Source: Methylococcaceae bacterium
GTDB lineage: Bacteria > Pseudomonadota > Gammaproteobacteria > Methylococcales > Methylomonadaceae
Assembly (NCBI GenBank): GCA_009925045.1
Contig: RFQK01000019.1
Coordinates: 1-13,857 of the forward strand
Direction of reading: 5' to 3'
Length of the DNA: 13,857 bases
This document shows positions 6,096 through 11,377 of the stretch, piece by piece (the stretch's first letter is position 1; every line of letters begins with the position of its first letter). Position numbers and translations under genes: made by a program. A model generated the notes under the pieces. The model saw only the letters and a list, made by a program, of their open reading frames with translations. It made no database searches and was not told where the DNA came from.

Positions 6096-6572
6096 GTGAA
6101 AACCAGTCATTATCAGAACATCAGTAAAGTTCGTCGCGATTACAACTCACTGGTTGCCAACGAAACTCTGGAAGATTACGCCTTACGCTTTGCCCCGCGC
6201 AGTTTTCGCAAATGGTCAGGCTTTATAGTTGGCAACACAGCTTTTGGTTCGACCTCGTTTCTGGTCCTGGAGGCCATCGGCGGTTTTCTATCGATTAACT
6301 ACGGCTTTACCAATGCCTGCTGGGCAATTCTGATAGTAGGTCTGATCATTTTCATCACCAGCTTTCCTATCACCTATTACGCGGCCAAATACCATATTGA
6401 TATCGACTTGCTGACCCGTAGCGCCGGTTTCGGTTACATAGGCTCTACGCTTACGTCCTTAATCTACGCCTCGTTCACCTTTACCCTGTTATTGGGGAAC
6501 AGGTCGACTTTTTACGTTTCATGCCCGACATCGATCCACGTCGGCCCTGGCGCTGGTGGCTACCTTTATTGA
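6096..6572 (+). pseudogene. NCS1 permease-like sensor domain, N-terminal fragment (frame-broken)
   Basis: From a GTG at 6096 this frame encodes the first part of an NCS1 (cytosine/purine/allantoin permease) domain as found at the N-terminus of certain large hybrid sensor kinases. The recognisable part is residues 1 to about 131. It contains RRDYNSLVANETLEDYALRF, then three hydrophobic segments: about 40-66, 73-95 and 115-132 (GYIGSTLTSLIYASFTFTLL). After about base 6490 this frame loses similarity, and the last 27 or so residues are out-of-frame sequence ending at a stop at 6570-6572. The neighbouring frame takes over at VIGEQVDFLRF (from about 6488), which in the intact family lies roughly 100 residues further on. 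This means an internal deletion with a frame change. The start has only a weak AGTGG ribosome site. The family comparison is from memory, so the deletion size is approximate. Confidence 0.75.
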
Positions 6573-7330
6573 TTTCAGGTCCCGGCTGGATCTTTTTTGG
6601 CATGTTACGTCAATTTGCTGGGGCTCTTTTGGCTCACCTCGCCATTAGACATGGCATTAGCCCCACGCATGCCCATGAACCCACTCAGATGTATACGGTT
6701 GCTTATTCCATGCTGTTCGAAAACCCCAAAGTGGCTATTGCGGTCAGCACTTTGTTTGTGGTTTTAAGTCAGCTCAAAATCAACGTCACTAATGCTTACG
6801 CCGGCTCGCTGGCCTGGTCTAATTTTTTCTCCCGCATCACCCATAGCCATCCCGGACGGGTGGTCTGGTTATTTTTCAACGTCATGATTGCGCTATTACT
6901 GATGGAGTTTGGGGTATTCGGCGCATTAGAAAAAGTGCTAGGTCTGTTTTCCAACATTTCCATCGCCTGGATCAGTTCGGTCGCCGCAGACTTAATGATC
7001 AACAAACCATTGGGTCTTAGCCCCAAACAAATTGAATTCAAGCGGGCTTATTTGGCAGATCTTAATCCGGTCGGAATTTTCGCTACTTTTTGGGCTTCGA
7101 CACTGTCAATTCTGGCTTATCTGGGCTTGTTTGGCGCATATCCGCAAGCCTTTTCGGCCTTCATTGCGCTGGGCTTGAGTTTTATTCTGGTTCCTTTGAT
7201 TGCCTTAATTACTAAAAGCCGTCATTACATTATTCGAGAACACCATACACAACATGAGCAGCATTCCCAAAACTGTTCTATCTGTGAAAATCATTTCGAA
7301 TCCGAAGACATGGCCTTCTGCCCTGCTTAG
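6521..7330 (+). pseudogene. NCS1 permease-like sensor domain, C-terminal fragment with truncated Cys-rich linker
   Basis: This frame continues the permease-like domain; its similarity really begins near 6488, ahead of the ATG at 6521 used as the left boundary. It carries IGEQVDFLRF, then helices at about 12-40 and 70-103 with the signature LSQLKINVTNAYAGSLAWSN, and further helices at 112-135, 145-160, 182-205 and 211-230 with NKPLGLSPKQIEFKRAYL between. It ends in a basic/His tail and NCSICENHFESEDMAFCPA (Cys 252, 255, 267), where a TAG stops it. In the family as I recall it, a further Cys-rich segment follows before the kinase, so a second deletion with frame change is inferred at about 7316-7332. 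No ribosome site fits the ATG at 6521, so independent expression is doubtful. Confidence 0.75.
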
Positions 7331-9029
7331 CCATCGTGCTAAAACGCGAATCTTACGTTTTCTGATGTTGTTCAGTTTTTTGGCTGTGCTGACGGGGATT
7401 TTTATCAGCATTATTTATTACCAGGACTTGCTGGCGACTAAAAACAATCATGGCAGCTTCGATCTTATTTTTAATAACTTCTTAAAGATATACGCCTCGT
7501 TGCTGGTGTTTTTGGGTCTGGGGACTTGGTGGATTATTCTCAATGAAGAAAGCCGCAAGGTAGCATTAGAGGAAACGCATAAACAAACCCAGTTGTTACT
7601 GGAAGAGATTGCTGAGCATCAAAAAACCGATAGTAAGTTACAAGATGCAATTCGCATGGCTGAAGCGGCTAACCAAGCCAAGAGTCGTTTTCTGAGCAAT
7701 ATGAGTCACGAGATCCGTTCCCCTTTAAACAGTATCGTCGGTTATGCTCATATTCTTAATCAAGATCCCAAGATTCCTGCTCACAGAAAACAGGCAGTTG
7801 AAACCTTAAAACGCAGCAGTGAGCATTTATCCGATTTAATCGAAGATATTTTGGATATTGCCAAGATCGAAGCCCGCAAATTTGATTTAAAGTATCAAAC
7901 CATCGACTTTTCCAGCTTGATTCGACATTTAGAACACACCTTCAGCGTTCAGGCTGAAAGCAAAGGCTTGCTGTTCAGTTGCATCGTAGTTAACCGCTTA
8001 CCGCGTTGGGTTCGAGGCGATGAAAAACGGGTGGGGCAAATTCTCATCAATTTGCTGAGCAATGCGATTAAATTCACGCCAAATGGTTCAGTCAGTTTAA
8101 AGATTGCTTATAGCGCCGGGGTCGCAACTTTTCAAATCATTGATACCGGTGTTGGCATTGCACCTGATCAATTACAACAAATCTTCCAGCCTTTTACACG
8201 ATTGACCAGCGCTAACGCTGGCAATGCTGTCGGCAGTGGTCTGGGGTTGACGATCAGTAAAACGCTAACTGAGGTGATGGGCGGTGAGATAACCGTAGAC
8301 AGCAAACTCGCGCAAGGCACTACTTTTAGCGTGAAATTACTCTTACCCAGTGTCCATGTTTCGGCCTCTGAAAAGCGCGATGACACTATCATTGGCTATC
8401 AAGGTTCCAGACGCAAAATCTTGCTGGTTGATGATCAAAAATCGCAACGACAATTATTAATCGACATTCTCGAGCCTTTGGGTTTTATTATTTGTGAAGC
8501 CAGTTCGGGAGAAAACTGTTTGTTTAAAATCATGCGTGAACGTCCCGACCTGATTATCATGGACATTTCCATGCCAGGCCTGAACGGTATCGACACCACC
8601 TCTCAGCTCCGTAAACTCGAAATCAGCTCGCCGATTCTGATTGTCAGTGCCAATGCTTATGCAGATGACCGCGTAGCCGCCATCAATGCGGGTTGTAATG
8701 ATTTTCTGCCGAAACCAATCAACCCAACCGACTTACTGGATCGTATTGGTACTTGGTTAAATCTTGACTGGATTTATATTCAGCCACAGTTTGAATCGGT
8801 CATCCCTGATGCTCAGTCAGACATCGCTATTCCCCCCGAAGACTTGCTGGAAAGCTGCGAAATTTTCGCCCGAATTGGGGATATGTTAGGCCTAAAATCT
8901 CATGTTCTAAATCTCATGACCAGCCACCCGGAGTATGATGGATTCTTCCAAACTATTTTAGAAATGATTAAGGCCTTTAAAGTGACAGAAATTCGTCAAA
9001 TCCTCGCTGCAGCAAATCGGAACGCCTAG
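7254..9029 (+). CDS. Hybrid sensor histidine kinase with receiver (kinase part of the split NCS1 sensor)
   Basis: This is an intact 591-residue kinase frame. Similarity to the NCS1-sensor family begins at about residue 25 (SHRAKTRILRF); the first 24 residues overlap the permease fragment in another frame and look like read-through of non-coding phase. Membrane helices are at about 34-56 and 79-97, a coiled linker at about 98-140, and the H-box MSHEIRSPLN with the phospho-acceptor His152. The ATPase has an N-box (GQILINLLSNAIKF), DTGVGIAP near 297 and GSGLGLTI near 328. A receiver spans about 388-500 with DD at 393-394, acceptor Asp437 and Lys487. A short helical tail (about 520-590) follows. 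No stop interrupts it, so function may persist. The start is uncertain: ATG 7254 has no good ribosome site, and M38 (7365) is an alternative. The response regulator follows after 3 nt. Confidence 0.85.
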   Translation: MSSIPKTVLSVKIISNPKTWPSALLSHRAKTRILRFLMLFSFLAVLTGIFISIIYYQDLLATKNNHGSFDLIFNNFLKIYASLLVFLGLGTWWIILNEESRKVALEETHKQTQLLLEEIAEHQKTDSKLQDAIRMAEAANQAKSRFLSNMSHEIRSPLNSIVGYAHILNQDPKIPAHRKQAVETLKRSSEHLSDLIEDILDIAKIEARKFDLKYQTIDFSSLIRHLEHTFSVQAESKGLLFSCIVVNRLPRWVRGDEKRVGQILINLLSNAIKFTPNGSVSLKIAYSAGVATFQIIDTGVGIAPDQLQQIFQPFTRLTSANAGNAVGSGLGLTISKTLTEVMGGEITVDSKLAQGTTFSVKLLLPSVHVSASEKRDDTIIGYQGSRRKILLVDDQKSQRQLLIDILEPLGFIICEASSGENCLFKIMRERPDLIIMDISMPGLNGIDTTSQLRKLEISSPILIVSANAYADDRVAAINAGCNDFLPKPINPTDLLDRIGTWLNLDWIYIQPQFESVIPDAQSDIAIPPEDLLESCEIFARIGDMLGLKSHVLNLMTSHPEYDGFFQTILEMIKAFKVTEIRQILAAANRNA

Positions 9030-9032
9030 ATT

Positions 9033-9767
9033 ATGAATAATCCCAAAGGCACCGTTCTGATTGTCGATGATACACCGGCCAATTTAGCCTTGTTATCCGA
9101 CACCCTATCCGAAGCTCAGTATCGCGTTCTGGTAGCCACGGATGGTCTGTCAGCAATTGAGCAAATCAGTTACAGCAAACCCGACATCATCTTGCTTGAC
9201 GTCATCATGCCGGGCATCGATGGTTTTGAGACTTGCAATCGTTTGAAATCTAATCCTGACACTCTGGACATTCCCGTGCTGTTTATGACCGGACTCAGCG
9301 AACTAGACGATTTATTACGCGGTTTCAGTGAGGGTGGACTGGATTATATTGTTAAACCAATTCGCCCGGCGGAAGTTCTGGCACGCATAGAAGTTCATCT
9401 GCAACAAACCCGAAATCGCTTGCGAGCAGAACAACTGATTCATCATAACGATTTTGCGGCCCTGGTCGTCGATAACCAAGGCATTATTAACTGGCTGACA
9501 CCCGCAGCCGAGCAGTGGCTAAATCACTTTAGCCAAGAGTTTGCACTGCTACCTTGCGCGGGTATTAATGACTCACTCCCCAGCAAACTATTAAGCGCTT
9601 TCCAGCAATGGAGTCAGCAAATCACCAATGTGGGCAGTGATGCAACAGAGTTTAAATTGGGCTCAGGTTTCAGTTTGAATATGAGCCCCTGTGAAAACGA
9701 GCGCGGTTATTTATTACTCTTACACCATGAAAGCGATAACTGGACACCGGACTTACAATCCAACTGA
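9033..9767 (+). CDS. Response regulator without a DNA-binding domain
   Basis: This 244-residue protein starts 3 nt after the kinase stop, so it is co-translated with it. Residues about 7-120 are a receiver: DD at 12-13, acceptor Asp56 in LLDVIMPG, Thr86 and Lys108 in KPI. Residues about 125-240 form a degenerate PAS-like sensor region (FAALVVDNQGIINWLTPAAEQWL, with LTP near 155-157). The receiver and PAS-like parts resemble regulators that accompany NCS1-type sensor kinases, which as I recall them end in a LuxR-type helix-turn-helix. Here the frame stops before any such domain, and oxyR begins one base later. It may signal only by protein contact, or the 3' end may have been lost in a deletion. 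The start ATG has no strong ribosome site, consistent with coupling. Confidence 0.85.
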   Translation: MNNPKGTVLIVDDTPANLALLSDTLSEAQYRVLVATDGLSAIEQISYSKPDIILLDVIMPGIDGFETCNRLKSNPDTLDIPVLFMTGLSELDDLLRGFSEGGLDYIVKPIRPAEVLARIEVHLQQTRNRLRAEQLIHHNDFAALVVDNQGIINWLTPAAEQWLNHFSQEFALLPCAGINDSLPSKLLSAFQQWSQQITNVGSDATEFKLGSGFSLNMSPCENERGYLLLLHHESDNWTPDLQSN

Positions 9768-9768
9768 T

Positions 9769-10674
9769 ATGAACCTTAGAGATTTACACTACATTGTTGC
9801 AGTAGCAGATCTTCAAAACTTTGGACAGGCAGCCGAACGATGTTTTATCAGTCAACCCACTTTGAGTATGCAAATCAAAAAACTCGAAGAAAGTTTGGGG
9901 GTGCAATTATTTGAGCGTAGCAATAAGAAAGTGTTGATCACGCAGGCCGGTGCTGCCATCGTCGAATCTGCCAGACGAATTCTGGAAGAAACCCAAAACA
10001 TCAAACAAATTGCCGCAACGGCTCAAGACCCCCTCGCGGGCAGTTTACGTCTGGGCGCTTTTCCGACCCTGGCCCCTTATTTGTTTCCAGCCTTGGTGCC
10101 TTTGATCAGAGCGTGTTTGCCGAATATTCGCTTGATCTTAGTTGAAGAAAAAACTGAACAACTTATCTCGCTGTTATCAAAAGGTGAGCTGGATATGGCG
10201 CTGCTGGCATTACCGATAGAGGAGGAACTGTTCGATTCAGTAGCCTTATTTGCGGATGAATTTTTCTTAGCGGTTGCCAGTGATCATCCTTTGGCTGAAA
10301 AGTCTCAGGTTGAACAAGCTGATCTGGTGGGCGAAAGTTTGTTACTTCTGGATGAAGGCCATTGTTTGCGCGGACATGCCTTACAGGTTTGCCAAATACA
10401 TGGCCTTGATGAACAGCAAGACCTCAGGGCTACGAGTCTGGAAACGCTCCGACAGATGGTTTGCGCAGGAACAGGTATTACTTTTATGCCCAAGATTACG
10501 CTGCGAGAGGATCCTCATATTCGCTATATTCCTTTTGATTTTCCACCCCAAAGAACTATTGGTCTGGTTTGGCGAAAAACCTCAGCAAGAACCCAATTAA
10601 TCAACACCTTAAAAGGCTTGATTCAAACCTCTGTTGCGAAGATTCAAGCGATTAAACCCTCACTGCCACAGTAA
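9769..10674 (+). CDS. oxyR: Hydrogen peroxide-sensing LysR regulator OxyR
   Basis: This is a 301-residue LysR-family activator that senses peroxide through a disulfide and controls antioxidant genes. The winged helix-turn-helix is at about 17-44 (NFGQAAERCFISQPTLSMQI), with a linker helix to about 88 and the effector domain after it. The motif LLDEGHCLRGHALQVC places the redox cysteines at 199 and 208, the same numbering as E. coli OxyR. The downstream ATSLETLRQMVCAGTGITFMP is also typical. I use the ATG at 9769, since it begins the conserved MNLRDLHYIV; an upstream in-frame start at 9691 lies inside the response-regulator gene. The ATG follows the regulator's TGA by one base and no ribosome site is evident, so it is probably translationally coupled to that gene. 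Confidence 0.95.
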   Translation: MNLRDLHYIVAVADLQNFGQAAERCFISQPTLSMQIKKLEESLGVQLFERSNKKVLITQAGAAIVESARRILEETQNIKQIAATAQDPLAGSLRLGAFPTLAPYLFPALVPLIRACLPNIRLILVEEKTEQLISLLSKGELDMALLALPIEEELFDSVALFADEFFLAVASDHPLAEKSQVEQADLVGESLLLLDEGHCLRGHALQVCQIHGLDEQQDLRATSLETLRQMVCAGTGITFMPKITLREDPHIRYIPFDFPPQRTIGLVWRKTSARTQLINTLKGLIQTSVAKIQAIKPSLPQ

Positions 10675-10724: not shown

Positions 10725-10985
10725 TCAACCTTTGCGCTCGGGGTAACTATAAATAGCAGGACCTGAAGCTTTATCGACATAAAAGATTTCTTGCTGATTC
10801 CATTGTTGAGTCTCTATGTAATTCGGATAACTATGAATACCGCGATTAAACGCCGGATTGTCATAGAGCACTTCGGTAATCTGGTGATTCTGCACGTGAT
10901 CCATGGTGGCATGATCACCATGCGCATACACATGAGTGGATGCAGCCATTGCCGCAATCATTGAAATAATTGTGAAAGTTTTCAT
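10725..10985 (-). CDS. Small His-rich exported protein, candidate OxyR target
   Basis: I do not recognise this 86-residue protein. Residues 1-21 are a clear signal peptide (MKTFTIISMIAAMAASTHVYA) with cleavage before HGDHATMDHVQNH. The mature N-terminus therefore carries five histidines and two aspartates within about 13 residues, which would suit metal binding. The remainder is rich in Tyr, Asn and Gln, with two SYP repeats (HSYPNYIE and YSYPERKG), and has no cysteine. A ribosome site GGGAGAA lies 6 nt before the ATG. It converges on oxyR, and a near-consensus OxyR operator lies about 93-129 bp upstream of the start. A periplasmic role in metal or peroxide stress is therefore plausible but is inference only. 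Confidence 0.75.
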   Translation of the reverse strand: MKTFTIISMIAAMAASTHVYAHGDHATMDHVQNHQITEVLYDNPAFNRGIHSYPNYIETQQWNQQEIFYVDKASGPAIYSYPERKG

Positions 10986-11077
10986 GGTTGTTCTCCCGTT
11001 AAGTGATGTTATCCGCCGAAAGTTACTTGCACTCTCGACTCGGGGAACAGTGTGCCGCGAACAGCTTACCTAGAAAA

Positions 11078-11114
11078 ATCGATTGTTTTTATTAAATCAA
11101 TAGATGAAAACTAT
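11078..11114. promoter_or_regulatory. Candidate OxyR operator upstream of the small exported gene
   Basis: Four tetramers on the plus strand, ATCG, TTAT, ATAG and CTAT, are each separated by exactly 7 nt. The OxyR consensus is ATAG-N7-CTAT-N7-ATAG-N7-CTAT, so 14 of 16 defined bases match; one half-site pair is perfect. It lies between the stop of the superinfection-immunity gene (11129) and the start of the small exported gene (10985). oxyR itself is the next gene beyond. I see no convincing -10 downstream on the minus strand. Confidence 0.65.
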
Positions 11115-11128
11115 CAACCTATTTAGCC

Positions 11129-11377
11129 CTACTGAGGATCATCAATCTTTTCCAGAGCCCAGATAATAAGCAGTATCCAGACTAAACCTGTCATGCCCAA
11201 AGCAAAGTTGATCGCAAAAATGACCCAGCGATTTCTGTGGCCCTTGTTAAAGGCGATCAGCGTAGGAATGAAATAAATGGCATTAAAAATGATGAATAGG
11301 CCTACTAACAAAAGCAGCCCCAGGAGAGGACTCAGACCAAAACTATCAAAATAGCTAAAGGTTTGGATATCGTACAT
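11129..11377 (-). CDS. Superinfection immunity-family membrane protein
   Basis: This 82-residue protein belongs to the Imm_superinfect family, named for T4 Imm, which blocks DNA entry of related phages. Bacterial chromosomal copies are common and their role is mostly unknown. Two hydrophobic segments, about 17-40 and 49-72, flank the signature YFIPTLIAFNKGHRNRW (about 33-49) and the later GMTGLVWILLIIWALE. A short polar end (EKIDDPQ) follows. The ATG at 11377 has only a weak GGTGG ribosome site about 11 nt upstream. It lies alone on the minus strand with its own promoter-like sequence and no phage genes nearby, so I infer a housekeeping membrane role or a solitary defence gene rather than prophage remains. 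Confidence 0.85.
   Translation of the reverse strand: MYDIQTFSYFDSFGLSPLLGLLLLVGLFIIFNAIYFIPTLIAFNKGHRNRWVIFAINFALGMTGLVWILLIIWALEKIDDPQ

Follow-up and report, generated by a model that had tools for sequence, protein, structure and literature searches.

The window considered here, the whole 13,857-nt stretch of methanotroph DNA that was analysed, holds a 37-bp element resembling an OxyR operator, positioned upstream of a small gene for an exported protein. This raises the question of whether the element is a real OxyR binding site and, if so, which gene it serves and to what effect. The features that bear on this question are:

7254-9029: kinase gene, preceding the response-regulator gene
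9033-9767: response-regulator gene, preceding oxyR
9769..10674, plus strand: oxyR (oxyR1), probable regulator in trans, recognised by PF00126, PF03466 and redox cysteines
10725..10985, minus strand: ORF for an 86-aa exported SYP-repeat protein (signal peptide by eye), predicted OxyR target
11049..11054, minus strand: putative -10-like hexamer 23 nt past the operator, CACACT, a weak match to TATAAT
11072..11077, minus strand: putative -35 position, TTTTCT, abutting the operator, placed by spacing and by columns averaging 1.54 bits
11078..11114, minus strand when read towards the 86-aa gene: predicted OxyR operator of four tetramers, 37 bp, from consensus match and conservation
11129-11377, minus strand: gene for an 82-aa protein with a PF14373 superinfection-immunity domain, just upstream of the operator

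The element lies 92 nt upstream of the ATG of the 86-aa gene; the ORF coordinates agree with the earlier note on this DNA, which had placed it upstream of a small gene convergent with oxyR. It is also 403 nt beyond the oxyR stop codon and thus outside the oxyR promoter in the window. The start of oxyR follows the stop of the response-regulator gene by 1 nt and, being directly behind the response-regulator and kinase genes, oxyR is probably cotranscribed with them. Hence, the window oxyR lacks an operator of its own and is probably transcribed with a two-component system, in contrast to 12 of the 20 other genomes of the genus Methylomonas. In the window, the permease-kinase gene is broken over three frames (6096-6572, 6521-7330 and 7254-9029), while it forms one long ORF in G118 (1099 aa) and G171 (at least 1067 aa); the breakage may reflect decay or an assembly error.

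The match to the OxyR consensus

On the plus strand, 11078-11114 reads ATCG-N7-TTAT-N7-ATAG-N7-CTAT; 14 of its 16 tetramer bases fit the OxyR consensus, and every spacing is exactly 7 nt. The four tetramers, their spacing and their score, as first noticed from the sequence alone, were recovered by a consensus scan, in which this was the sole match in the window at up to three mismatches. Dinucleotide shuffles of the window gave a mean of 0.03 matches, with at least one match in 6 of the 200 shuffles. The initial estimate of about 0.004 matches expected per window is close to what a control with the reversed consensus gives, about 0.0024 two-mismatch matches per 13.9 kb (from 27 in ~159 Mb).

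On a larger scale, the consensus discriminates poorly. The draft genome to which the window belongs (2.0 Mb, 478 contigs, 83% complete) has three consensus places, of which 11078-11114 is the best with two mismatches and the remaining two have three, and the reversed control likewise finds three. Across the 37 genomes of the genus (~159 Mb), the E. coli OxyR consensus yields 34 two-mismatch matches versus 27 for the reversed control, so that by itself it is weak evidence at genome scale. We accordingly dropped it as a finder of targets in the genus, in favour of a motif specific to the genus.

The product of oxyR

OxyR is a hydrogen-peroxide sensor. The product of 9769-10674 matches PF00126 and PF03466 above cut-off, corresponding to the LysR helix-turn-helix and substrate-binding domains, and its two best NCBIfam models are both OxyR (NF050018, 297.6 of 500 bits; NF008361, 295.5 of 329), followed by CynR at 178.4 bits. 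The curated cut-offs of the two OxyR models are not reached; these are narrow equivalog thresholds and no defining biological feature. Aligned to PDB 1i6a (E. coli OxyR), the protein has a cysteine opposite each of the peroxidatic and resolving cysteines, numbered 199 and 208 there. Thus, its domains, nearest families and redox cysteines fit an identification as OxyR.

Conservation of the site upstream of the exported gene

Fifteen further genomes of the genus encode an ortholog of the 86-aa protein (E 2e-15 or better), and G013 and G007 have weak matches; in none of the 15 does oxyR1 adjoin the ortholog, as judged from contig positions. A site scoring 12-14 of 16 is present within 350 nt upstream of the gene in all 16 genomes with a clear ortholog, the window included, and these scores are equalled by 0-4 of 400 shuffles each; in G028 and G005 the best placement is an overlapping 13/16 register, with the aligned register also scoring 13. 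Upstream of the weak matches in G013 and G007, no site of 12/16 or better was found. All 16 genomes with a clear ortholog also carry OxyR1. The earlier note had named loss of the tetramer pattern in close relatives that keep both genes as the observation that would speak against an operator; what we find is retention of a site of at least 12/16 at 16 of 16 orthologs.

Beyond the genus, a site reaching 12/16 or more precedes 9 of 19 homolog copies from 16 genomes (equalled by 0-6 of 400 shuffles), with two of the remaining copies scoring 11 and eight scoring 9-10. Among the 34 genomes whose upstream regions were inspected, out of 53 with a family match, such a site is present in 24 of the 28 with an OxyR match (E 1e-60 or better) versus none of the 6 without. 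One of these 24, G268, has only an OxyR2-like match at 51% identity in a genome that is 77% complete. Conversely, G013, G125, G126 and G090 possess both OxyR and a family homolog, yet have no 12/16 site upstream of the homolog, and single homolog copies in G088 and G226 also lack one.

Within the site, conservation is on average strongest at the tetramers. Their columns average 1.63 bits over 17 representative 86-aa promoters, compared with 0.99 for the other columns of the site and 0.20 for the upstream flank. The window shares the majority base of the other 16 representatives at 31 of 37 site positions, compared with 8 of 40 positions in the upstream flank and 2 of 17 in the spacer. It is this conservation, rather than the match score, that convinces us that 11078-11114 is a candidate operator worth the name, and the original proposal of an OxyR operator is upheld on that ground. 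The element is very probably a real OxyR binding site.

Co-occurrence of motif, exported gene and OxyR1

The genus motif, ATYGATTGTTTTTATNNNNNCRATAG, was searched at up to two mismatches. It is present in 20 of the 21 genomes with OxyR1, the exception (G006) having it only at three mismatches, and in none of the 16 without; because some of the sites later found had served to build the motif, the count among OxyR1 holders is partly by construction, unlike the absence from the non-holders, several of which are small or incomplete drafts. In G000, G001, G004, G011, G020, G034 and G035, the sole match in the genome precedes the 86-aa gene. A separate one-mismatch copy with reversed polarity precedes a PEP_mutase-family gene in G032 (G032:C1:2634476-2634501; L078:1501-1526).

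The 86-aa gene itself is found in 16 of the 21 genomes of the genus with OxyR1 and in none of the 16 without (Fisher 1.6e-6, uncorrected for relatedness), the weak matches in G013 and G007 being taken as absent. Across 311 genomes of the order, 53 have a family match, 78 have OxyR and 39 have both, leaving 14 of the 53 with no OxyR match at E 1e-60. The association extends outside the genus, with both present in 22 of 274 genomes (Fisher about 1e-9, again uncorrected for relatedness).

Predicted operators at oxyR1 and peroxide-detoxification genes

In 12 of the 20 other genomes of the genus, the operator ends 13-14 nt before the start codon of oxyR1, and in the other 8 none was seen upstream of oxyR1. 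Across this operator, oxyR1 is divergent from a catalase gene in G012 and G024 and, in G032, G013 and G021, from a peroxiredoxin gene accompanied by a glutathione-reductase-like gene; in seven genomes of the genus, a DUF815 gene lies divergently about 350 nt off. In G026, an operator precedes a lone peroxiredoxin gene away from oxyR1. The catalase of G012, the peroxiredoxins of G032 and G026, and the DUF815 protein of G036 were tested against Pfam, the rest being assigned by sequence likeness. In the window's own draft genome, neither a catalase (PF00199) nor the peroxiredoxin of the relatives was found, a result of little weight, as the draft is 83% complete and one of the searches had no positive control.

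Twelve oxyR1 loci from outside the genus were also inspected. A 12-14/16 site is situated upstream of oxyR1 in G192, G087, G226, G088 and G060, a 13/16 and a 12/16 site lie in front of a homolog-oxyR1 pair in G118 and G171, respectively, and G299 has only a degenerate motif, while nothing was found upstream of oxyR1 in G235, G233, G248 and G045. A homolog of the 86-aa gene is beside oxyR1 in four genomes from four other genera: the two are divergent with the operator between them in G088 and G226, and in tandem with the operator in front in G118 and G171. Together with the convergent order in the window, these three arrangements support a predicted functional link between the homolog and oxyR1. 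The pair in G118 and G171 adjoins the same permease-kinase and response-regulator genes as those preceding the window oxyR. In these two genomes (loci L147 and L148), the operator stands between the pair and the divergent permease-kinase gene, which might be under OxyR control as well.

Putative promoter architecture and the proposed direction of regulation

No sigma-70 consensus promoter was found by a promoter scan of the window region. The six columns following the site average 1.54 bits over the 17 representatives, and in all 16 orthologs of the genus a hexamer whose second base is A and whose sixth is T begins 23 nt past the operator (CAGAAT, CACAAT or CAAAAT in the orthologs, CACACT in the window). 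The same pattern recurs at 23 nt in 2 of 2 catalase promoters (TATTCT) and in all 6 of the peroxiredoxin promoters (TACACT, TAGACT), and a TATAGT hexamer is offset by one in G118 and G171. With this spacing the operator would abut the -35 position, the place expected for OxyR as an activator; the -35 and -10 elements of the 86-aa promoter are accordingly putative, being assigned from spacing.

We therefore propose a mechanism in which oxidised OxyR, the product of 9769-10674, would bind the four tetramers of 11078-11114, immediately before the -35 position, and would recruit RNA polymerase, such that the 86-aa gene (10725-10985) would be activated as hydrogen peroxide rises. We infer binding, activation as opposed to repression, and the peroxide signal from sequence features, and regard this reading of the element as highly likely.

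A reading in which bound OxyR would repress the 86-aa gene instead of activating it is, in our estimate, unlikely. Passages on E. coli OxyR describe repression of its own gene (PMC5002191), and the placing of the operator 13-14 nt ahead of oxyR1 in 12 of the 20 other genomes of the genus would suit such a role. At the 86-aa gene, however, the polarity of the operator is that seen at the catalase and peroxiredoxin genes: it precedes the -35 position, with 23 nt between it and the -10-like hexamer, and does not lie over the start as it does at oxyR1. The site could also serve another LysR-type protein or an unrelated regulator. Spaced dyads are the binding sites of LysR-type proteins in general, and the paralog OxyR2, one such candidate, is found in 13 of the 16 genomes of the genus with the 86-aa gene. 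Against this, the three genomes of the genus with OxyR2 only (G002, G015 and G030) have neither the gene nor the motif, the gene occurs with no OxyR2 match in the draft G000, G006 and G012, and the operator is found in front of oxyR1 itself and follows the distribution of OxyR1 (20 of 21 versus 0 of 16), which renders use by a different regulator quite improbable.

A chance AT-rich match would be in keeping with the near-equality of the E. coli consensus and its reversed control at the scale of the genus (34 versus 27), and a terminator of the 82-aa gene with the AT-rich imperfect inverted repeat in the site and the stop codon of that gene only 14 nt away. Neither would account for tetramer-specific conservation at all 16 orthologs, whose neighbouring genes differ, and we give this reading hardly any credence. 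A terminator scan found no terminator-like match at the site, its only match being at 11316-11332, and the terminator reading was rejected.

The exported protein

The 86-aa protein, whose export was judged by eye from a signal peptide, matches no Pfam or NCBIfam family at E 0.001, and its longer homologs match no Pfam family above cut-off. It ends in a repeat-like motif, in which the residues invariant in 13 sequences include Y69, A73, G75, A77, I78, Y79, S80 and Y81; by eye, the longer homologs apparently have three such repeats. An AlphaFold model has a mean pLDDT of 47.4, too low for use. No description of the exported target was found in searches of open-licence papers.

The protein is likely to be part of the peroxide defence of methanotrophs, and an envelope-protective role is suggested by its predicted regulation alone. 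On a more speculative note, the SYP-repeat proteins could conceivably constitute a new envelope peroxide-defence factor of Methylococcales and a core OxyR target even where no other strong operator of this motif is left, as in the seven genomes named above whose sole motif match precedes this gene, though we hold this only tentatively.

Significance and comparison with known systems

Neither the regulator nor the operator is new in kind; the novelty lies in the target, a protein with repeats that belongs to no Pfam or NCBIfam family, and in its conservation. The regulation of oxidative stress in methanotrophs has been called unclear in passages of a study on Methylomonas sp. DH-1 (PMC6373157). 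An OxyR operator sequence can now be proposed for Methylomonas and some other methanotrophs, with a predicted core target set of oxyR, catalase, peroxiredoxin and the exported repeat protein, and an uncharacterised family of exported proteins is thereby linked, as a prediction, to peroxide defence. The same passages report two oxyR copies in DH-1, OxyR and OxyR2, a likeness to the genomes considered here, which are of the same genus; unlike the present work, they name neither an operator nor a small exported target.

The OxyR-dependent sites in passages of a Pseudomonas aeruginosa study (PMC5720770) score 12/16 (phnW), 12/16 (ahpC) and 13/16 (ahpB), placing the 14/16 of the window site within the range of real sites, and some of them share ATCG as the first tetramer. 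Those sites have footprint and mutant data and other targets, whereas that of the window is known from its sequence.

The closest parallels are with E. coli, where, in the passages of PMC5002191, OxyR operators take the form ATAG-N7-CTAT-N7-ATAG-N7-CTAT and OxyR represses oxyR and activates the divergent oxyS. The shared elements are four tetramers at 11-bp phasing, a position upstream of the promoter, the redox cysteines of OxyR and, in relatives of the window genome, a shared divergent operator at oxyR1. Unlike in E. coli, the window oxyR has lost or never had an operator, the half of the Methylomonas operator towards the target is fixed (ATYGATTGTTTTTAT) with the other half looser, and the predicted target is a new exported protein.
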